Origin: Azospirillaceae bacterium
Lineage (GTDB): Bacteria; Pseudomonadota; Alphaproteobacteria; Azospirillales; Azospirillaceae
DNA length: 33,557 nucleotides
Direction of reading: 5' to 3'
Assembly: GCA_028281465.1 (NCBI GenBank)
Contig: JANQJV010000081.1
Coordinates: 1 to 33,557 of the forward strand
The position numbers and the translations under genes were made by a program. Each line of letters opens with the position of its first letter. The stretch's first letter is position 1. Below, piece after piece: positions 1-33,557 of the stretch. The notes below the pieces were generated by a model. That model was given only the letters and a program-made list of their open reading frames with translations. It did no database searches and was not told the origin of the DNA.

Positions 1-98
1 TCCAGCCGGCCCGGACCACGTCCAGCGGCAGGCCGCCAAGATTGGCGGCGGTCCAGCCGGCAGGGATGCCGGCGCTCCTCGTTCAGCGCCGAAACCGA
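1..98. repeat. GC-rich hairpin repeat, copy R1 (cut by window edge)
   Basis: This is the right part of a dispersed repeat seen again at 16918-17122 and 33056-33175. Shared blocks include CCGGCCCGGACCACG, GGCGGCGGTCCAGCCGG, GATGCCGGCGCTCCT and GTTCAGCGCCGAAACCGA. The blocks contain many GCCGGC/GGCGGC inverted segments, so the transcript or single strand would fold into strong hairpins. The left end lies outside the window. No protein is expected here. Confidence 0.75.
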
Positions 99-156
99 AT
101 CCGTGCGAGGCGTTCTCGACAAGATCATGACCGGCCTCTGATCCGGACGCCCGTTC

Positions 157-9113: not shown

Positions 9114-9806
9114 ATGTCCAAATCGGTGGAACAAACAAAAGTCACCCTCGATGTCCTCAGATCGCAGTCGCTCACCAATGTGGTGCGGTCCGAGGTCGAG
9201 GGTTTGATCCTGAACGGGGAATTGGCACCGGGTGACCATGTCAGCGAGATCGGCTTGGCCAACCGGTTGCAAGTCAGCCGTGGGCCGGTGCGGGAGGCCT
9301 GTCGCGCCCTGGCAGGGGCCGGGCTCTTGGAGTACCGGGTCAATCGCGGGTTCTTTGTGCGCAAGCTGAGCATGGCGGAGATTGCCGATGTCTATGACGT
9401 TCGGGCGTGTCTTGCCCGCCTGGCTGGTCAGACCTTGGCGCAGCGCATCGGCGATGACGAGGTGGCCCATCTGGCTGCGCTGATCGATGGCATGGACGAG
9501 GCCAACGCAACCCGCGATGTGACGCGATTCTACGAATTCAATATGGAGTTCCATAATCGGCTGATTGAATTCACCAAAAATGGCAAATTGCTTCGTATTC
9601 ACAATGATCTAATGAAAGAATTACATGTCTATCGGCGGCGTGGTTTGGTTGCGGGGCATGACACCGAACAATCCAACCGGGAACACCGATCGATTCTGGA
9701 AGCGATCAAGGCGCGCGACGCGGAGCGGGCCGGATCGGCTATGGAGCACCATGTGCTTCAAGGCAAGGCGCGCTTTCTAGCGGCAACGGCTGGAGACGCG
9801 GCCTGA
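9114..9806 (+). CDS. GntR-family regulator, FCD (FadR-like) type
   Basis: A 230-residue DNA-binding regulator. Residues about 18-85 form a GntR winged helix: VVRSEVEGLILNGELAPGDHVSE, LANRLQVSRGPVREACRAL and AGLLEYRVNRGFFVRKLS. The rest is an all-helical FCD ligand domain with MAEIADVYDVRACLARLA, FNMEFHNRLIEF (metal/ligand His region), and SNREHRSILEAIKARDAERA. Such regulators sense organic or amino acids and usually control neighbouring catabolic genes. The best target nearby is the carbamoyl-hydrolase-type gene starting at 10250. The 215 bp upstream (8899-9113) show no other gene and probably hold the promoter. Confidence 0.9.
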   Translation: MSKSVEQTKVTLDVLRSQSLTNVVRSEVEGLILNGELAPGDHVSEIGLANRLQVSRGPVREACRALAGAGLLEYRVNRGFFVRKLSMAEIADVYDVRACLARLAGQTLAQRIGDDEVAHLAALIDGMDEANATRDVTRFYEFNMEFHNRLIEFTKNGKLLRIHNDLMKELHVYRRRGLVAGHDTEQSNREHRSILEAIKARDAERAGSAMEHHVLQGKARFLAATAGDAA

Positions 9807-9829
9807 TCTTTGGAGGTGGGGTACGCATC

Positions 9830-10060
9830 ATGTCGATGGCGTACGATAACGATGTCCATCTCTGGTCACGGGGGTTGGCGTCCCGATTGCGCCAGGGCTT
9901 TGACGCGCTCGACCTGGCACAGGTGGCGGACCAGGTTGAGGACATGGGCAATTCCGGACGCCGGACCTTGGGGTCCCGTTTGGGGATGCTGGTTGGTGAC
10001 GGTGCGCACCCCGTGCAAAGCGATGTGCTAGCTTCCGGCCCGAAACTCGGGAAAGAATAA
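9830..10060 (+). pseudogene. truncated DUF29-family protein
   Basis: A 76-residue frame starts at an ATG preceded by GGAGGTGGGG. MAYDNDVHLWSRGLASRLRQ followed by DALDLAQVADQVEDMGNSGRRTLGSRLGMLV matches the N-terminal half of DUF29 proteins (YD-D---W---QA-LLR, FDALD-ENLAEEIEDMG-SERR-L-SRL--LL). Full-length members are about 140-150 residues; here family similarity stops after LGMLVGD and the frame ends 24 residues later. The missing half is not found in other frames downstream. It is a truncated, likely non-functional gene. Confidence 0.7.
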
Positions 10061-10249
10061 CCCGGCCGTCTTGGCCGATGCCCTGCCGACCGCTTGGAGC
10101 GCGGGGTAAGCTCTGGCCTTATGCGCTGGAGCGTTTGGGCGACGGCGGGGATTGGCTCGGCTGGGGCAAGACCTGATATCCTCCGTTCCGGTTACGGCAC
10201 AGCAAAAGGGCTGGGCCGGGCGCCTGTGATCGGAATGCGGGAGCGAGGC

Positions 10250-11497
10250 ATGCGTGGGATCGACGCGGAACGGGTGTGGCGCAACATCATGGCCCTGGCG
10301 GCGGTCACGGATCCAGAGCGGCCTTACACGCGGCGCGCTTTTACGGCCCGGTTCCTGGATGGCCGACGCTGGCTGACCGAGCGCTTCGAGGCGGCGGGTC
10401 TTGCTGTCAGCATGGATGTCGCCGGCAACCTGATTGGGCGCTTGCCGGGGCATGACCCGGCGGCGAAACCAATCGTGGTCGGCTCGCACATCGACACGGT
10501 ACCGGACGGCGGCCGGTTCGACGGCATTCTGGGCGTGCTGGCTGGGCTTGAGGTGGTCGAATGCCTGCGCGCTGCCGGCGAGACGCTGCGTCACCCGCTC
10601 GAGGTGATCGATTTCCTGGCCGAGGAACCGTCGGACTACGGCGCGTCGTGCATAGGCAGCCGCGGCATGATCGGCACGCTCGACGCGGCGTCGCTGGCGC
10701 GCGCCAACCCCGACGGGGAGCCGTTGCACGCCGCCATCGCGCGCATGGGCGGTGACCCGACGCAACTCGACCGGCCGTTGCGGCAGCCAGGCGACATCGC
10801 CGCGTCGCTGGAGCTGCACATCGAACAGGGCCGCGTGCTGGAAACCGCTGGTCTGCAGGTCGGTGACGTCATGTCCATTGTCGGCATCGAACGGCATTCT
10901 GTCACCGTCGAGGGACGCGCCGACCATGCTGGCACAACCCCTATGGGCCTGCGCCGCGACGCTCTGGCCGGTAGTGCCCAAGTGATCGCCCGAGCCGAGA
11001 GCCTGGCGCGGGACCTGAACCGAAACGGCGATTACTTCGTCGCGACGGTGGGTCGGCTGGCCGTCACGCCCAATGCAGCCAATGTGGTGCCAGGCCGGGT
11101 GGAGATGACGGTGGAAATCCGCAGCACGCGGGAAGCGGCGTTGGCTGATTTCATGGCTGCGCTCACCGGGTTCGCGGAGCCGGTGTGCGCCGAGCGTGGC
11201 CTGACCTATTCGAGCCACCGCATCAGCCTATTGCCGCCGACGCAATGTGCGCCGGTGGTGCGCGAGGCTGTGGGTGCGGCGGCGGCCGAACTCGGTCTGC
11301 GGTTGACGGCGCTTGCCAGCGGTGCCGGGCACGACACGATCCAGATGGCGCGTCTTGGACCCGCCGGTATGGTCTTCATCCGCTCCGCCGATGGTCGCAG
11401 CCACGCACCGGAAGAATGGAGCAGCCAAGACGATGTGGCCGCCGGCGTGGCGTTGGTGCTCGCGGCCGTGCGCCGGCTCGATCGCGCCTTGCCCTGA
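10250..11497 (+). CDS. Zn-dependent hydrolase, N-carbamoyl-L-amino acid hydrolase / allantoate amidohydrolase type
   Basis: A 415-residue M20-fold amidohydrolase of the HyuC/AllC group, which cleaves carbamoyl or ureido groups from amino-acid-like substrates using two metal ions. Metal-ligand motifs are in place: GSHIDTVPDGGRFDG (H80, D91), FLAEEPSDYGASCIGSR (E125/E126), LELHIEQGRVLE (H190) and GRSHAPEEW (H385). The dimerisation domain shows ERHSVTVEGRADHAGTTPM. I chose the ATG at 10250 because GGGAG lies six bases upstream; an earlier ATG at 10235 has no ribosome-binding site and the frame is open from 10094. The exact substrate (N-carbamoyl amino acid, allantoate, beta-ureidopropionate) is uncertain. 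The GntR gene upstream may regulate it. Confidence 0.88.
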   Translation: MRGIDAERVWRNIMALAAVTDPERPYTRRAFTARFLDGRRWLTERFEAAGLAVSMDVAGNLIGRLPGHDPAAKPIVVGSHIDTVPDGGRFDGILGVLAGLEVVECLRAAGETLRHPLEVIDFLAEEPSDYGASCIGSRGMIGTLDAASLARANPDGEPLHAAIARMGGDPTQLDRPLRQPGDIAASLELHIEQGRVLETAGLQVGDVMSIVGIERHSVTVEGRADHAGTTPMGLRRDALAGSAQVIARAESLARDLNRNGDYFVATVGRLAVTPNAANVVPGRVEMTVEIRSTREAALADFMAALTGFAEPVCAERGLTYSSHRISLLPPTQCAPVVREAVGAAAAELGLRLTALASGAGHDTIQMARLGPAGMVFIRSADGRSHAPEEWSSQDDVAAGVALVLAAVRRLDRALP

Positions 11498-16398: not shown

Positions 16399-16917
16399 AC
16401 CGGGGATCGTTCGGATTTTGCAGATCCGCCGCCGCGTTTCCGCGTGTCAGGCACCGGCGCTGTGTCGGAACTGGCTGTGCATTCGGGCGAACATGTCGTT
16501 GCTCACATGTCGGCCGCACGAACAGTCCTGCGGGCAGCGCCAGCGTGTCGCCCTGGCGCCTGCCAGCCTGCGCCTCTGCGTCCGTGGCCAACGCAAGAAC
16601 ATCCAGTACGACGGGCAGGTGACGGCCATGGATGTCACCGACGACCAGATCGAAGCCATGATTTGATCGACGGCAGGGTGGTGGGCGGCGCCTTCTCGGC
16701 GCCATGGGTGTGCATGGGTGGTTTTGATGTGCTGCCGTCGGGTCAGGTGACTTGGGGCTTCCCCGCCGAGGATGCCATCGCGACGGTGTCGCGTTCTCCC
16801 GCACCGTCCTCAACTCGCTTCGTGTCACCACCGCTGTGGTGATCATGTTGTTGACCGTTCCCCCGGGGGATGACCCGGATCTGGTGTTGGCCGTGTTGAT
16901 GCGCGGGAAGGCGCGTT
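16399..16917. other. gene-poor stretch
   Basis: Several overlapping frames are open but none shows a recognisable family, signal peptide or well-placed ribosome-binding site. Short pieces such as GGFDVLPSGQVTWGFPAEDA look protein-like yet end without a credible gene. It may be eroded coding sequence. Confidence 0.5.
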
Positions 16918-17122
16918 ATACCAACGGCCCGAAACACTGACCGGTCCTCGGGCCGCCCTGTTTCGGAGCGCCGGCCTCCGTGCCGGCCGGACCGCCGGCT
17001 TCCAACCGGCCCGGACCACGCCCAGCCGCCGGCCGCCAAGATGGCGGCGGTCCAGCCGGTACGGATGCCGGCGCTCCTCGTTCAGCGCCGAAACCGACCG
17101 TGTCATCAATGCGGGCCATGGG
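16918..17122. repeat. GC-rich hairpin repeat, copy R2 (longest)
   Basis: Outer blocks ATACCAACGGCCCGAA, GACCGGTCCTCGGGCCGCCC, GTTTCGGAGCGCCGGC on the left and GCCGGCGCTCCTCGTTCAGC, CGAAACCGACCGTGTC, GCGGGCCATGGG on the right match copy R3 at 33056-33175. Between them R2 carries about 85 extra bases made of nested GGACCGCCGGCTTCC/GGCCGCCAAGATGGCGGCGG inverted segments, which also occur in R1. The whole folds as a large cruciform-like structure bounded by GGAGCGCCGGC and GCCGGCGCTCC. Confidence 0.85.
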
Positions 17123-17128
17123 TGTTAT

Positions 17129-22176: not shown

Positions 22177-22399
22177 GCGGTGCTCGGCGCCGAAACCACC
22201 GGCGCGTCCCGAAAGAGCGTCGGACATGTGGCAGCGCCGGCATCCTTGCCGGGCGGACCGCCGGCTGCCAGCCGGGTCATTCCGTCGATCAGTGAGTCGC
22301 CAGGATCAGAGCACCGCCGAGCCGACCGACCCACCGAACGGCCGTTGCGGACGCGTCCGGCGGACCTGAAGGTCGGCTCAGCAGCACCGAATCATGTCT
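22177..22399. repeat. convergent gap with partial hairpin repeat R4
   Basis: The gap between the convergent kinase and molybdenum-hydroxylase genes contains, at 22232-22275, GCGCCGGCATCCTTGCCGGG followed by CGGACCGCCGGCTGCCAGCC. This matches the inner hairpin blocks of copy R2 but lacks the outer blocks. It could act as a bidirectional transcript end. Nothing else is supported. Confidence 0.6.
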
Positions 22400-28328: not shown

Positions 28329-29519
28329 GTGCCGGACAGCCCGCTCACGGTCCGCGTCGCCGGATCGATCGACCGTATTGCTTCGCGCGATTGGGACTGG
28401 TGCGCCGGAGCGGACAACCCGTTTGTCGGCCATGCTTTCCTGAAGGCATTGGAAGACAGCGGATCGGTCGGGTCGGAAGCGGGCTGGCTACCAGTGCACC
28501 TTGCGGCGGAAGATGGTGCTGGTCGGGTGTTGGGGGTGGTGCCGCTTTATGCCAAGAGCCACTCCTATGGTGAATATGTCTTTGACCACGCCTGGGCCCA
28601 CGCATACGAGCGCGCCGGTGGCGACTACTACCCCAAGCTGCAGGTGGCCGTACCGTTCACGCCAGTGACCGGGCCGCGCCTGTTATTGGCGCCAGGGGCA
28701 CCTGAAGGTGTTGCTGCCGGTCTGATCCGAGCCTTGGAACGGGTGGCGCACACCAACCGGTTTTCCTCCGTGCACGTGACGTTCCCGACAGAGACGGAAT
28801 GGCAGCGGCTGGGCACCCAAGGCTGGTTGCTGCGCACCGGTCAGCAGTTTCATTGGTTCAACGCCGGCTACACGTGTTTCGACGATTTCCTGAGTGCGCT
28901 CAACTCCCGCAAGCGCAAGGCCATCCGCAAGGAACGTCGGACGGTCGCGGACAGTCCGGTGCGCATCCACACCCTGACCGGCGATGACCTGAGGCCGGAG
29001 CACTGGGACGCTTTTTTCCAGTTCTACATGGACACCAGTGATCGCAAATGGGGCATGCCCTACCTTACACGTGATTTCTTTCATCGGCTCGGCTCGGTTC
29101 TGGCCGACCGGGTGGTGTTATTCCTCGCCGAGGAAGACGGTATGTGGGTCGCCGGGGCGCTGAACCTGCGTGGCAGCGACGCGCTATACGGCCGAAACTG
29201 GGGCGCCATTGCCGACTACAAGTTTCTGCACTTCGAGGCGTGTTACTACTGCGCCATCGACTTTGCCATCGCCCATGGTCTGAAACGGGTGGAAGCGGGC
29301 GCCCAGGGTGAGCATAAGATCCAGCGCGGGTACTTGCCGCAGCCCACCTTTTCTGCGCATTGGTTTCGCGACCCCAGTTTCCGGAAAGCGTTGTCGGAGT
29401 ACCTGGATCATGAGCGCGATGCCATGGCCTGTCACCGCGAAGAATTGGGCGAAGCCTCGCCGTTCCGCAAAACCGGCGAGGTGTGCTCTGGCGATGCAGG
29501 TCCGAAAGACCCACAATAG
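28329..29519 (+). CDS. DUF482 / FemAB-like acyltransferase
   Basis: A 396-residue GNAT-superfamily protein of the PF04339 type (peptidogalycan/FemAB-like). Clear segments are NPFVGHAFLKALEDSGSVG, WLPVHLAAEDGAGRVLGVVP, YGEYVFDHAWAHAYERAGG, YYPKLQVAVPFTPVTGPRLL, RKRKAIRKERRTV and LKRVEAGAQGEHKIQRGYLP. Members are cytoplasmic and presumed to transfer amino-acyl or acyl groups, but no reaction is firmly known. Start is the GTG at 28329, 15 bp after the RidA gene, so it probably belongs to the same operon. The last bases of this gene are found again at 30790-30840 between the two binding-protein genes downstream. Confidence 0.85.
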   Translation: MPDSPLTVRVAGSIDRIASRDWDWCAGADNPFVGHAFLKALEDSGSVGSEAGWLPVHLAAEDGAGRVLGVVPLYAKSHSYGEYVFDHAWAHAYERAGGDYYPKLQVAVPFTPVTGPRLLLAPGAPEGVAAGLIRALERVAHTNRFSSVHVTFPTETEWQRLGTQGWLLRTGQQFHWFNAGYTCFDDFLSALNSRKRKAIRKERRTVADSPVRIHTLTGDDLRPEHWDAFFQFYMDTSDRKWGMPYLTRDFFHRLGSVLADRVVLFLAEEDGMWVAGALNLRGSDALYGRNWGAIADYKFLHFEACYYCAIDFAIAHGLKRVEAGAQGEHKIQRGYLPQPTFSAHWFRDPSFRKALSEYLDHERDAMACHREELGEASPFRKTGEVCSGDAGPKDPQ

Positions 29520-29588
29520 GGACGGTGTGAGTGGGCGGGACTGATCATGCCCGTTGGCCCATCGTCAACATCCTCGGGGAGTCGTCGG

Positions 29589-30593
29589 ATGAAACCATTG
29601 CACCCGCCCTTGGCCGCCATTGTGGCTGTCGTCGTCGCTGCGGTCAGCGTCGACATGACCGCCCAGGCCGACAACAAAATCTACACCGGCGGGAGATCGG
29701 GCAGCTATTTCAATTCGTTTGGACCAAAGATCGATAGTGTTCTGGAGCGTTCGTTTTTCCACTATGACGTTGCCACCAGCGCTGGCAGTGGCGAGAATCT
29801 GCGCCGCGTCATCGAAGACCCGAGCGCCATCGGTCTTGCCCAATCGGATGTCTTGGCGTTTGAAACCAGCCAAGACCCATCATGGGCCGAACAGATCGTG
29901 ATCATCCGCAGTGATGTTGCCTACGAATGTGTGTTCGCCATCACCAGCCCAGACTTCGCCGATCGGCTAAGAAATTGGGGCGATGTGCAGAGCTTCGCGC
30001 GCCGGCTGACCATTGCGGTCGGGCCGGAGGCCAGCGGCTCGGCCACCACCCTCCGCTTCTTGCGCAGGCTCAGCGACCGGCTGGCCCAGGCCCGGGTGAT
30101 GCATATGGAGAACACCGACACGGCCATTGCCACGATCATCGACAGGCAAGCGCAGCTCGGTTTCTTCGTCCAGTTCGCCGACACCGGCAACCCGCGCTTC
30201 GAAACCATTAACGACGCCGAGCTGAGTTTCATCCCGGTGATCGACCGCAGCATGCTGCGCCAACGGGTGAACGGCGAGCCTGTCTACAAGGCTCAGGAAG
30301 TCAAGGTCACCAGCGCCGGCCTGCTGAGTTGGCGCGGAGTGAAGCGTGTCGTGACCGCCTGCACGCCATTGGTGATCATAACCGGCAGTCCCGACCGGTT
30401 TCCCGAAGGCAGCGCCGAGCGGCTGGATCTGGTGGATATGATTGCGGCCCTGCGCGATGCGCCGGTGGAGGAGTTGCGGCCGGATGAGGGCTGGTTCACG
30501 GCCCTGCTGGATGATGCTGTGGAACTGTCCGGTCAGGGTCTGGAAACTCTGCTTGAACAGGCCGAGCGTGCCGCGCAGGAACTGCAGCAGTAA
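29589..30593 (+). CDS. TAXI-like periplasmic solute-binding protein, copy 1
   Basis: A 334-residue exported binding protein. The ATG at 29589 is preceded by GGGGAG and followed by a signal peptide (AAIVAVVVAAVSVDMTAQA). The mature start DNKIYTGGRSGSYFNSFGPK, then SAGSGENLRRVIEDPSAIGL and AQSDVLAFE resembles TAXI-type TRAP and related type-2 periplasmic binding proteins (TGG--G-Y, T-GS-ENL, G--QSDV). TACTP and YECVFAI contain two conserved Cys. No membrane subunits (DctQ/DctM) or ABC genes are near. It is a paralogue of the gene at 30913 with identical length. The ligand is unknown; it could serve a distant transporter or a sensor. Confidence 0.8.
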   Translation: MKPLHPPLAAIVAVVVAAVSVDMTAQADNKIYTGGRSGSYFNSFGPKIDSVLERSFFHYDVATSAGSGENLRRVIEDPSAIGLAQSDVLAFETSQDPSWAEQIVIIRSDVAYECVFAITSPDFADRLRNWGDVQSFARRLTIAVGPEASGSATTLRFLRRLSDRLAQARVMHMENTDTAIATIIDRQAQLGFFVQFADTGNPRFETINDAELSFIPVIDRSMLRQRVNGEPVYKAQEVKVTSAGLLSWRGVKRVVTACTPLVIITGSPDRFPEGSAERLDLVDMIAALRDAPVEELRPDEGWFTALLDDAVELSGQGLETLLEQAERAAQELQQ

Positions 30594-30912
30594 GTGTGCG
30601 CCTGGTCTTCTGACAGATTGGGCGGACATGGAGCGTCCGCCCGAAGCATGCTCCATACCGCCGAACGCATGGTGACCCTGCTGACCGAAGGCGCACCGGG
30701 GATTAGTTCAGTGATTCCAAAATCACGGCGTTCTGACCCCCACCGGCCGACCACGGTACGGCATTGGGCGAGACGCGGCCCATGCACGAAATCGGCGAGG
30801 CTTGTTCTGGCGATGCCGGTCCGAAAGACCCACAATAGGGCAGGCATCGGCCGGCACCGCCTGCTGATCCACCAAGAACACCCGTATCAAGACCACCCCT
30901 AGGAGTCGTCTT
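30594..30912. other. spacer between paralogues with a relic of the acyltransferase tail
   Basis: At about 30792-30840 the sequence GGCGAGGCTTGTTCTGGCGA followed by TGCCGGTCCGAAAGACCCAC nearly repeats the last codons of the DUF482 gene (29475-29520), including its stop codon and AATAGGG. The offset (1319 bp) matches that of the two binding-protein starts (1324 bp), so this is the junction of a tandem duplication. No gene is otherwise supported. Confidence 0.8.
30620..30642 (+). terminator. hairpin after binding-protein copy 1
   Basis: GGGCGGAC and GTCCGCCC form a perfect 8-bp stem with a 7-base loop, 27 bp after the stop codon. There is no T-run, so it may be a Rho-assisted or mRNA-stabilising hairpin rather than a classical terminator. 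Confidence 0.5.
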
Positions 30913-31917
30913 ATGAAACCAATGCACATATCGCTGGCGGCCGCATCGGCAGCCGCCGTGTTGGCACTGGGCGTCGGCACCCCCGCCGAAGCTGACAACA
31001 AAATTTACACCGGCGGGGAGTCGGGCAGTTACTTCAACTCGTTCGGGCCCAAGATCGAAGCCGTATTGGAGGCTTCGTTTTTTCACTATGACGTCGCCGC
31101 CAGCGCCGGCAGCGGCGAGAACTTACGTCGGGTGATCCAGGAGCCGGGTTCCGTTGGCCTGGCCCAAACGGATGTGCTGGCGTTTGAGACCAGCCAGGAC
31201 GCGTCGTTGGCTGAACAATTCGTGATCATCCGCAACGACGTGGCCTATGAATGTGTGTTCGCCATCACCAGTCCGGATTTCGCAGACCGCCTAAAGACCT
31301 GGGGCGATGTGCAGCGCTATGCGCGCCGACTGACCGTGGCGGTCGGTCCAGAGGCCAGCGGCTCGGCCACCACTTTGCGGTTCCTGCGCACGCTCAGTGA
31401 AAAACTGGCCGAGGGACGTGTGGCGCACATGAGCGACACCGATGCGGCCATCGCCACGGTGATCGAGAATCAGGCGCAGCTCGGTTTTTTCGTCCAGTTC
31501 GCCGACACCAACAATCCGCGCTTTAAGACCATCAATGATGCCGAGTTGACTTTCATTCCGGTGATCGACCGCGCCATGCTCCGTCAACGGGTCAACGGGG
31601 AACCGGTGTACAAGGCGCAGGAGGTCAAGGTGACAAGTGCCGGCCTGTTGAGCTGGCGCGGAGTCAGCCGCGTGATCACGGCCTGCACGCCGCTGGCAAT
31701 CATCACAGCAAACCCTGAGAGCCTGCCCGAGGGCAGCCCGGAGCGCCAGGACCTCGTTGACATGATTGCCGCGTTGCGCGATGCGCCGGCGGCGGATCTT
31801 CAGCCGAGCGAGGGCTGGTTCACCGCTTTGCTCGACGATGCCGTGGAGATGTCGGGCCAGGGCCTGGAAAGCCTGCTGGAACAGGCCGAGCGCGCCGCGC
31901 AGCAATTGCAGCAGTAA
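30913..31917 (+). CDS. TAXI-like periplasmic solute-binding protein, copy 2
   Basis: A 334-residue paralogue of the protein at 29589. TAGGAGTCGTCTT before the ATG mirrors the first copy. A signal peptide (LAAASAAAVLALGVGTPAEA) precedes DNKIYTGGESGSYFNSFGPK. Large blocks are identical between copies, for example AVGPEASGSATTLRFLR and the run QRVNGEPVYKAQEVKVTSAG, while signal peptides and surface positions differ (for instance VMHMENTD versus VAHMSDTD). This means the duplication is old enough for divergence, yet both frames remain intact, so both are probably kept by selection, perhaps for different ligands. A terminator-like hairpin follows at 31943. Confidence 0.8.
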   Translation: MKPMHISLAAASAAAVLALGVGTPAEADNKIYTGGESGSYFNSFGPKIEAVLEASFFHYDVAASAGSGENLRRVIQEPGSVGLAQTDVLAFETSQDASLAEQFVIIRNDVAYECVFAITSPDFADRLKTWGDVQRYARRLTVAVGPEASGSATTLRFLRTLSEKLAEGRVAHMSDTDAAIATVIENQAQLGFFVQFADTNNPRFKTINDAELTFIPVIDRAMLRQRVNGEPVYKAQEVKVTSAGLLSWRGVSRVITACTPLAIITANPESLPEGSPERQDLVDMIAALRDAPAADLQPSEGWFTALLDDAVEMSGQGLESLLEQAERAAQQLQQ

Positions 31918-32000: not shown

Positions 32001-33056
32001 ATGACCGACCGCGTGTCGTTGTTCATATCGACGCCGCTTGAAGGCGAGCATGTGGCACGGATCCGTGCCGTTGCCCCCGAACAGGTCGAGGTGGTGCACG
32101 AACCAGACCTTTTGCCGCCAACCCGCTTCGTCGCTGACCATGGCGGGAGTCCGGATTTTCGGCGCACGGCCGAGCAAGACCGCCGGTGGCGCCGGCATCT
32201 GGGCGCGGCACAGGTCCTGTTCGACCTCCCGCCGGTGGTGGCCGACGACCCGCCGTTCCGGTCATTGATCCCGAATGTGCGCTGGATTCAGACCACCAGT
32301 TCCGGTGTGGGACAAAAAGTGCATCATCTGGGCCTGCACGAGACCGAGGTGGTGGTGACCACGGCCCGTGGCGTGCACGCCGAGCCCTTGGCCGAATTCG
32401 TCTTCATGGCCTTGCTCAGCCACGTGAAGCGTTTGGAATACCTGAAGTCCGAACAGCGGGCGCACCGGTGGGAACGGTATTGCGGTGATGGCCTTGCGGG
32501 CCGGACTCTGGCGATCATAGGGGTTGGTGAGATTGGTCGGCGCGTAGCGGCGATCGGCCGCGCTTTTCGCATGCGCGTTTTGGCGATGAATGCCGTCTAT
32601 ACAGTGAGCCGTGCGACCGATTTGGGCGTGGACGTGCTGTATCCGCCCAGCGAGCTCCATGCCATGCTGGCCGCGGCCGATGTCCTGGTGTTGAGTATGC
32701 CGCACACACCGGAAACCGAGCGGATGATCGATGCTGCCGCGCTTGCTGCTCTCAAGCCCGGTGCCATGCTGGTCAATGTGGCGCGCGGCACGGTGGTCGA
32801 CGAGCCGGCGCTGATCGAGGCGTTGCGCAACGGTCATCTCGATTTTGCCGCTCTGGACGTGACGCTGGTGGAACCCCTCCCGGACAAGAGCCCGTTGTGG
32901 GATTTGCCCAATGTCTTGATCAGTCCACATTCGGCGAGCACGGTGGCGCAGGAAAACCAGCGGATCACCGACATCTTCTGCCACAATTTACGTTGCTGGC
33001 TGGATGGCCGTCGGGCGGATATGCGCAATGTGCTCGACAAGGCCCGGCTGTATTAA
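32001..33056 (+). CDS. D-2-hydroxyacid dehydrogenase
   Basis: A 351-residue NAD(P)-dependent oxidoreductase of the D-isomer-specific 2-hydroxyacid dehydrogenase family (GhrA/SerA-like). The Rossmann motif is GVGEIG (G174-G179) in GRTLAIIGVGEIGRRVAAIG. Catalytic residues fit the family: R262 in NVARGTVVDE, E291 in DVTLVEPLPDKSPLW and H310 in ISPHSA. WIQTTSSGVG and GVHAEPLAEFVFMALL are typical. It reduces a 2-keto acid or oxidises the corresponding D-2-hydroxy acid in the cytoplasm; the substrate is uncertain. Its stop codon touches the start of hairpin repeat R3. Confidence 0.92.
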   Translation: MTDRVSLFISTPLEGEHVARIRAVAPEQVEVVHEPDLLPPTRFVADHGGSPDFRRTAEQDRRWRRHLGAAQVLFDLPPVVADDPPFRSLIPNVRWIQTTSSGVGQKVHHLGLHETEVVVTTARGVHAEPLAEFVFMALLSHVKRLEYLKSEQRAHRWERYCGDGLAGRTLAIIGVGEIGRRVAAIGRAFRMRVLAMNAVYTVSRATDLGVDVLYPPSELHAMLAAADVLVLSMPHTPETERMIDAAALAALKPGAMLVNVARGTVVDEPALIEALRNGHLDFAALDVTLVEPLPDKSPLWDLPNVLISPHSASTVAQENQRITDIFCHNLRCWLDGRRADMRNVLDKARLY

Positions 33057-33175
33057 TACCAACGGCCCGAAGCAATGACCGGTCCTCGGGCCGCCCTGTT
33101 TCGGAGCGCCGGCAGGGATGCCGGCGCTCCTGGTTCAGCGCCGAAACCGACCGTGTCGTCAACGCGGGCCATGGG
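33056..33175. repeat. GC-rich hairpin repeat, copy R3 (short form)
   Basis: It shares the outer blocks of R2 (ATACCAACGGCCCGAA, CCTCGGGCCGCCCTGTTTCG, GTTCAGCGCCGAAACCGACC, GCGGGCCATGGG), but its centre is just GGAGCGCCGGC-AGGGAT-GCCGGCGCTCC. Two hairpins are obvious: CGGCCCGA/TCGGGCCG at 33063-33093, and the central 11-bp stem with a 6-base loop. It begins at the dehydrogenase stop codon and may end that transcript. Confidence 0.85.
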
Positions 33176-33177
33176 GA

Positions 33178-33308
33178 TAAGAGGGGCAAAATGGGTGGCA
33201 ATGGCCCAAGATGACGATTTGCTGAACCTACAACCCATTGATTTGGCTCGAAGAATTCTGGCATCCCTTCGGCACCATCATGATCTGCCACCCATTTTGC
33301 CCCTCTTA
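33178..33308. mobile_element. 131-bp MITE-like element with perfect 23-bp inverted ends
   Basis: The first 23 bases (33178-33200, beginning TAAGAGGGGCAAAATGGG) are the exact reverse complement of the last 23 (33286-33308, ending CCCATTTTGCCCCTCTTA). The 85-bp centre codes for nothing recognisable. Ends beginning with TA would fit a Tc1/mariner/IS630-type element that duplicates a TA target; no transposase is inside, so it would be a non-autonomous MITE. It sits directly beside repeat R3. A very strong transcriptional hairpin is an alternative reading. Confidence 0.65.
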
Positions 33309-33410
33309 CTTATTTTTTATTTAAGCCGTTGATTTTCTTGGATACCTCTGCGCCGTTGGCGGGAAGGTCCGTTAGAGGATGAACCTCTGGGCGGGTCGTG
33401 GCCACATCCC

Positions 33411-33557
33411 GGAGCGCCGACGCCCCGTCGGCCCAGCCCGTCAACCCGGCACCGCGGCGGGAACACCGGACACCGTCCGCCGTCCGCGGAGCTGTGGCCA
33501 TCCGACGGCGGCCCCCGCACCGGCGTGCACACGAGGCCGACGAGGCGTCGGCGCTCC
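33411..33557. repeat. 147-bp element with 22-bp inverted ends, copy R5
   Basis: The left end GGAGCGCCGACGCCCCGTCG (continuing GC) and the right end, read on the other strand as GGAGCGCCGACGCCTCGTCG (continuing GC), match at 21 of 22 positions. Each end is itself a small hairpin (GCCGACG-CC-CGTCGGC type). The outer GGAGCGCCG is the same as the bounding motif of R2 and R3, so this appears to be a diverged member of the same hairpin family with a different core. The right end coincides with the window end. Confidence 0.65.

Follow-up and report, generated by a model that had tools for sequence, protein, structure and literature searches.

Several described systems come close to the repeats analysed here. 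REPINs are a known parallel (as described in passages of PMC3116915; PMC2817692 is cited alongside), and a section of PMC3733652 describes REP dimers that regularly lie within another repeated palindrome, as in A. variabilis GTAG-15, T. roseum GTAG-23 and H. neapolitanus CGTC-1. According to an excerpt of PMC6006769, double-foot REPs could come from the central deletion of an inverted REP dimer. For transposition targets, the relevant passage of PMC12016507 assigns a 3-bp TNA duplication to the IS1031 group of the IS5 family.

The window analysed here, a stretch of 33,557 nucleotides, is one entire contig (C53) of an assembly of 6.33 Mb in 426 contigs. It contains five repeats, R1 to R5, at the places given in the initial annotation. 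R2 is one copy of a miniature inverted-repeat element (MITE) whose family has well over a hundred copies in the genome. The reading that we favour, with a probability of roughly 0.7, is that R2 is a MITE copy inserted with a TNA target duplication, that the family captured a REPIN once, that the composite was then amplified, and that its core was shortened by deletion.

R2, its copies and their target sites

The features of R2 and its ends are as follows.

16916–16918, no strand: left target-site duplication of R2, TTA (TTA on either side)
16919–17124, plus strand: R2, full-length MITE with the long 125-bp core (DNA search of the own genome, copy comparison)
16919–16931, plus strand: left terminal inverted repeat (TIR) TACCAACGGCCCG (TIR motif count, end alignment)
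17112–17124, minus strand: right terminal inverted repeat CGGGCCATGGGTG, consensus CGGGCCATGGGTA (TIR motif count, end alignment)
17125–17127, no strand: right target-site duplication of R2, TTA (TTA on either side)

R2 is thus 206 bp long, with ends TACCAACGGCCCG and CGGGCCATGGGTA. A DNA search of its own genome yielded 476 first-look candidates, 40 of which, including R2 itself, were scored places with 92–100% identity. Comparison of 30 copies with their flanks revealed abrupt boundaries, similarity ceasing just beyond the ends. The TIR motif ATACCMAYGGCCCG has 270 exact occurrences in the genome compared with 0 for the reversed pattern used as a control, and GGAGCGCCGGC has 448 compared with 15 in its control, numbers far in excess of chance. 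The ends are imperfect inverted repeats of about 13 bp, identical at 11 of the 13 first positions and reading TACC(A/C)A(C/T)GGCCCG on both sides, and the backbone shared by the copies amounts to 81 bp (a 46-bp left block and a 35-bp right block). With lengths of 89–206 bp, no coding capacity, a dispersed distribution and hundreds of ends, the elements have the properties of a MITE. The initial annotation had suspected a mobile, amplified unit, and this is borne out by the end-motif counts together with the TNA duplications and the two empty-site comparisons described below. It had also named few copies, or copies inside larger duplications, as counting against the idea; we found many copies, with flanks that vary from copy to copy.

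The following counts refer to a sample of 81 loci with 952,711 bases, consisting of the window and 80 regions, in which 44 R2-type elements were paired. The sample is biased in that 20 regions were picked for TIR hits and 60 by contig numbering, four of the latter (C2, C66, C94, C134) having been placed over known hits. Among the 40 elements with the 46-nt left block and both flanks, TNA is found on the left in 31, on the right in 35 and on both sides in 27. The paired TNAs are identical in 17 of these 27, compared with 7.44 expected by shuffling (p = 10−4). Identity was seen in 5 of 5 REP-less elements, 4 of 7 elements with one hairpin and 8 of 15 longer ones; the REP-less count becomes 6 of 6 once the element at L099 is included, which was left out for a block one base short despite its TAA/TAA match. 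Outer ends flanked by a duplicated TNA indicate DDE-type transposition of the MITE. The 10 mismatched pairs count against our reading and may stem from recombination between copies or from misassembly.

Unoccupied sites were sought with 39 joined-flank queries, which led to 7 spanning hits, 3 of them clean and relating to two insertions, an independent demonstration of the target duplication. These insertions, one of the 89-bp form and one of a form with a 102-bp core, lie within a decayed transposase gene at L032 on contig C1. The paralog L060 is unoccupied at both sites, with a single TCA at each, and the paralog L157 is likewise unoccupied at the second site, where the left copy of the duplication in L032 now reads TCG. 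The 4 other spanning hits (L098, L049) were rejected as other repeats or self-overlap. L032 (positions ~9700–10600), L060 and L157 each have a decayed IS transposase gene copy that provides landing sites for the MITE; the one at L060 is a PF01609 hit. At L098, L051 and L115 the flanks of the MITE have another repeat in common, GGTTGGSGCACGGCGC...GCGCCGTGCCCC.

No autonomous insertion sequence with R2-type TIRs was found among 12 PF01609, 2 PF13586 and 9 NF033580 hits in this incomplete assembly, and a search with the TIR pattern gave three hits, all of them MITE copies. None of the 9 IS5_3 hits has ends matching the R2 type, the copy on C2 having GGACCTGTGG-type ends next to CTA/TAG. Membership in the MITE class does not strictly require an autonomous relative with the same ends. 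Outside this genome, the R2-type element is absent from 38 relatives (a set without any other species of the same genus) and 288 other members of the class, with only short chance-level or core-only matches. The DNA search with R2 had hits in 9 of 39 genomes, the own genome among them, and the hits in other genomes were core-only, 25–55 bp, with E ~10−4. The 89-bp query matched 11 of 289 class genomes at E ≤ 0.01, again including the own genome, the rest being short partial matches, and the REP pattern was found in 1 of 39 genomes, the own one, all 38 relatives being negative. Plasmids gave no match, viral contigs none to an exact 20-mer, and Rfam none in the window.

Core forms and the other repeats of the window

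Within R2, the core and its connection to the right block comprise the following features.

16965–17077, plus strand: R2 core, a REPIN/BIME, i.e. two GGAG-tagged REPs in inverted orientation enclosing nested hairpins (47-nt arms 81% complementary; RNA fold; match to the BIME next to the RAYT gene)
16965–16987, plus strand: left REP, GGAG plus GCCGGC hairpin (REP pattern)
17055–17077, minus strand: right REP, inverted (inverted-repeat listing, REP pattern)
17078–17089, plus strand: tail TCGTTCAGCGCC joining the core to the right block, with an AGCGCC that repeats the AGCGCC at the core start (junction and end alignments)

The RNA fold of R2 has an energy of −126.1 kcal/mol (z = −7.12). In all elements the middle lies between the left block, ending in CTGTTTC, and the right block, starting with GAAACCGA. 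Its length among the 44 elements is 8 bp in 6 cases, 40 bp in 10, 125 bp in 16, and between 52 and 110 bp in the remaining 12. The 8-bp middle consists of GGAGCGCC alone and yields the 89-bp, REP-less element, the 40-bp middle is a single hairpin GGAGCGCCGGC-N6-GCCGGCGCTCC with the tail TSGTTCAGCGCC, and the 125-bp middle is the nested fold-back found in R2. Most of the 28 cores of other lengths than 125 bp equal the long-core consensus less one segment, with a mean junction microhomology of 5.9 bp compared with 2.0 bp at random breakpoints (p = 2 × 10−4, although the copies are not all independent events). The initial annotation had proposed GGAGCGCCGGC as the site at which cores enter or through which they are swapped. 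This proposal is not supported, and we reject the exchange: the mobile unit is the outer MITE with its TNA target duplications, and the length variants mostly fit deletions between direct repeats GCCGGC or AGCGCC within the fold-back core.

In some one-hairpin copies the loop matches the left loop of the long core (ATCCTT), in others the right one (AGGGAT); at least two kinds of deletion are therefore implied, and this form was reached by more than one route. Individual copies depart from the common forms. The element at L156 has an extra deletion running from the GGCCCG of the TIR to a GGCCCG of the core and is flanked by TCA at both sides, L095 has gained sequence as three 80-bp tandem units, and two adjacent elements at L044 have a rare core in common. 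At L037 a left block stands on each end of the core, making the copy fully palindromic by way of recombination or misassembly. Two observations in this part of the data count against our reading. A single deletion fits poorly in 4 of the 28 cores (both at L044, L046 and one copy at L041), and one allele of the right block is commoner in short forms (14 of 16 compared with 7 of 16, p = 0.023), so that the short forms are not a random draw of the long copies. Some short forms probably transposed as short forms.

The favoured reading would involve the following course of events. One ancestral MITE would have acquired a REPIN once; we infer a single capture because the 16 long cores all conform to the same consensus (no more than 7 mismatches), in a single orientation and with a nearly constant tail. 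The composite of MITE and REPIN could then have been amplified by a DDE-type transposase supplied in trans and working on the TIRs, the REPs hitch-hiking. The fold-back core would be unstable and could lose segments by slippage at the direct repeats GCCGGC (or AGCGCC, GGCCCG), and such slippage would give rise to the shorter forms, down to the 89-bp copy without REPs.

The other four repeats of the window are located as follows.

1–101, plus strand: R1, a long-core copy of which the contig start leaves the right part, with the right block broken after about GAAACCGAAT (repeat comparison)
22233–22275, plus strand: R4, core fragment without MITE blocks (repeat comparison)
33054–33056, plus strand: TAA, both stop codon of the gene 32001–33056 and left target-site duplication of R3, the right one being at 33178–33180 (gene-context table)
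33057–33177, plus strand: R3, 121-bp form of the R2-type MITE with a single double-foot hairpin at 33103–33130 (TAA on either side)
33374–33557, plus strand: R5, member of a second repeat family, reduced to its left part by the contig end, with a core from 33411 and bounds GGAGCGCCGACG / CGTCGGCGCTCC (I8 inverted repeat, copy comparison)

Much of the initial description of these repeats was accurate: R1, R2 and R3 have the right block in common and R2 and R3 the left block, R3 has a single hairpin with an 11-bp stem, R2 is 85 bp longer with nested hairpins, and R4 is core only. The repeats are real; the true units of R2 and R3 are 16919–17124, with TTA on both sides, and 33057–33177, with TAA on both sides. 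R3 sits exactly on the TAA stop of the dehydrogenase gene 32001–33056, and the duplication restored the stop. R5 is, by comparison of its copies, a second abundant repeat family with flanks unrelated to those of R2, and not the same element. It does have a different core and inverted ends as first described, the ends measuring 23 nt (96% complementary) instead of 22 bp.

The right junction of R5 has 88 exact occurrences in the genome. Elsewhere in this family, left ends follow a TNAG-like sequence (TTCCACACCG...) and right ends (...CGTTTCTTG) precede one. The 147-bp core between GGAGCGCCGACG and CGTCGGCGCTCC is GGAG-ended and similar to the R2-type core; the left blocks vary among copies (L117, L112, L089, L135, L086), and none of the copies examined was seen to be intact. 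At L007, L010, L024, L045 and L050 an R2-type MITE adjoins the left end of an R5 element with the junction GTGTGGAAC-TNA-TACC, reflecting either a preferred site or a compound unit.

The window has some further repeats. Positions 33178–33308, starting at the right target-site duplication of R3, contain a 23-bp inverted repeat (TAAGAGGGGCAAAATGGGTGGCA) that is perfect and has arms 85 bp apart; this may be a further small mobile element. At 422–486 four overlapping copies in register of a 13-bp unit, GACGACGATCTGG, form a tandem repeat of ~65 bp. The adjacent NMT1-like genes 29547–30593 and 30913–31917 (region 29444–31201), 74% identical over 300 bp and alike in their upstream DNA, look like a tandem duplication.

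REPs, the RAYT gene and rival explanations

A search for a Y1 transposase, suggested in the initial annotation, returned one Y1_Tnp hit in the whole genome, and the same gene is a RAYT (NF047646, 93.4 bits, cut-off 80). It is flanked by the palindrome of the MITE core, with GGAGCGCCGGCATCCTTGCCGGC...GCCGGCAGGGATGCCGGCGCTCC immediately upstream and half a palindrome inside its 3′ end. The upstream BIME and the MITE core align over 52–54 bases with a score of 84, compared with 36 for the best of 300 shuffles, in agreement with the REP/BIME-like nature first ascribed to the cores. An inverted doublet of GGAG-tagged REPs homologous to this BIME is present in most of the MITE copies. No MITE block was seen at the RAYT locus (L031), which lies outside the 81-locus sample used for counting REP seeds. 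In that sample of 952,711 bp, 116 of 121 exact GGAGCGCCGGC seeds fall within MITE clusters and 5 outside; on inspection one of the five belongs to a truncated MITE and four are without a hairpin. REPs in the sample therefore travel nearly always as MITE cargo, and the hairpins appear to spread as passengers, not by themselves.

The RAYT has three relatives in Verrucomicrobia MAGs, with 41–46% identity and hairpins in their flanks. Beside these relatives, a strict scan for GGAG directly at the foot of a hairpin found 5 at L139, 1 at L137 and none at L138; the own locus had none either, its GGAG tag standing one base away from the perfect stem. A literature search pairing GGAG with RAYT had no match.

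The most substantial rival explanation starts from the 89-bp junction, which counts against our reading because it retains GGAG exactly where RAYT chemistry would insert, with a 7-bp-stem hairpin at the same place. The 89-bp element could accordingly be the ancestral, empty MITE, and the RAYT could have put REPINs repeatedly, in different copies, into the loop of GTTTCGG-AGCG-CCGAAAC, directly 3′ of GGAG. A target tetranucleotide flanks the left end of IS200/IS605 elements (excerpt of PMC6006769), and REP dimers inside palindromes are known elsewhere (section of PMC3733652). The uniformity of the 16 long cores is, however, what one capture would leave, the 7-bp AGCGCCG microhomology at the junction is what a deletion would leave, and free REPIN donors are nearly nil besides the RAYT locus, all of which makes this history rather unlikely. 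It is far harder to believe that the whole unit is a REPIN/BIME moved by the RAYT with the outer blocks as mere BIME decoration. The same palindromes do flank the RAYT gene, but the RAYT locus is without MITE blocks, REP-less copies occupy clean TNA sites, and the outer 3-bp duplication is a DDE-type signature.

Misassembly of short reads at palindromic repeats has to be considered as well. Of the 139 contig ends sampled, 40 fall in R2-type and 27 in R5 repeats, 67 in all, and both families are therefore a main cause of the fragmented assembly; the palindromic left-core-left copy at L037, and mismatched TNAs found mainly among the longer copies, also suit the notion that the length variants and mixed duplications are largely artefacts. 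On the other hand, ordinary reads can span elements of 89 or 121 bp, the TNAs match in all six 89-bp copies and in four of the seven one-hairpin copies, and the window itself includes one 121-bp and one 206-bp form that are clean. Artefacts on that scale seem improbable to us, and a single REPIN capture by the MITE followed by amplification and deletion remains the reading that we prefer. More tentatively, we speculate that the REPs are second-order parasites: the RAYT's own dispersal of REPINs may have ceased or never begun, and MITEs may have been all that carried the REPs to high copy number. Two unrelated MITE-like families (R2 and R5 types) possibly captured them in separate events, and capture by MITEs might be a general route by which REPs spread.

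Gene context and comparison with known systems

R2-type elements are intergenic and mostly downstream of genes, in line with the initial remark that copies adjoin gene ends. Of 40 elements, none was placed within a predicted gene (the other 4 of the 44 paired elements were dropped for a nearby contig edge or a short left block; a home-made codon-usage gene finder predicted 742 genes in the sample). Where both neighbours are known (29 elements), 14 are convergent, 13 co-directional and 2 divergent. Convergent neighbours are commoner than among gaps >60 bp (14/29 compared with 55/364, p = 7 × 10−5 by Fisher's exact test) and divergent neighbours rarer (2/29 compared with 93/364, p = 0.023). Targeting of stop codons was considered and rejected: 5 of 40 elements lie exactly on a stop codon, which a rough, uncomputed estimate judged unremarkable because TNA includes TAA and TGA. 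When transcribed at the end of a gene, the core would fold into a hairpin of very high stability, and a role as a terminator or at the mRNA end is possible.

REP copy number and RAYT activity, usually assumed to be linked, come apart here, another transposon being the carrier that agrees with the data. Before RAYT activity is read off from the number of REPs, the surroundings of the REPs should be checked. In addition, the 89/121/206-bp series offers natural material for testing the loss of fold-back DNA by slippage.

The R2-type composite shares with REPIN/BIME systems the inverted doublet of tagged hairpins, the intergenic position and a linked RAYT gene flanked by the same palindromes. It differs in its tag, GGAG one base off the perfect stem instead of GTAG or GTGG, and in that it was not found to disperse as a unit of its own but almost wholly within a MITE. 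With bacterial MITEs that make DDE-type target duplications, such as Correia/NEMIS and RUP, it shares TIRs, non-coding sequence and high copy number; unlike them it carries a REPIN as cargo, and the partner transposase was not found in the assembly. The TNA duplication is like that of the IS1031 group of IS5, whereas the TIR TACCAACGGCCCG is unlike the IS1031-group repeat quoted in the passage of PMC12016507. Our searches of the open-licence literature turned up no MITE with demonstrated target duplications that was reported to carry a REPIN. The composite has precedents in the REP dimers within palindromes, for which the section of PMC3733652 reports neither a target duplication nor a series of nested deletions, and does not infer the outer element as vehicle. 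Finally, the 121-bp form resembles the double-foot REPs of the PMC6006769 excerpt in having GGAG...CTCC on one hairpin, and the junctions reported here point to the central deletion suggested there; the differences are that its hairpin lies inside a MITE and that its tag is GGAG.
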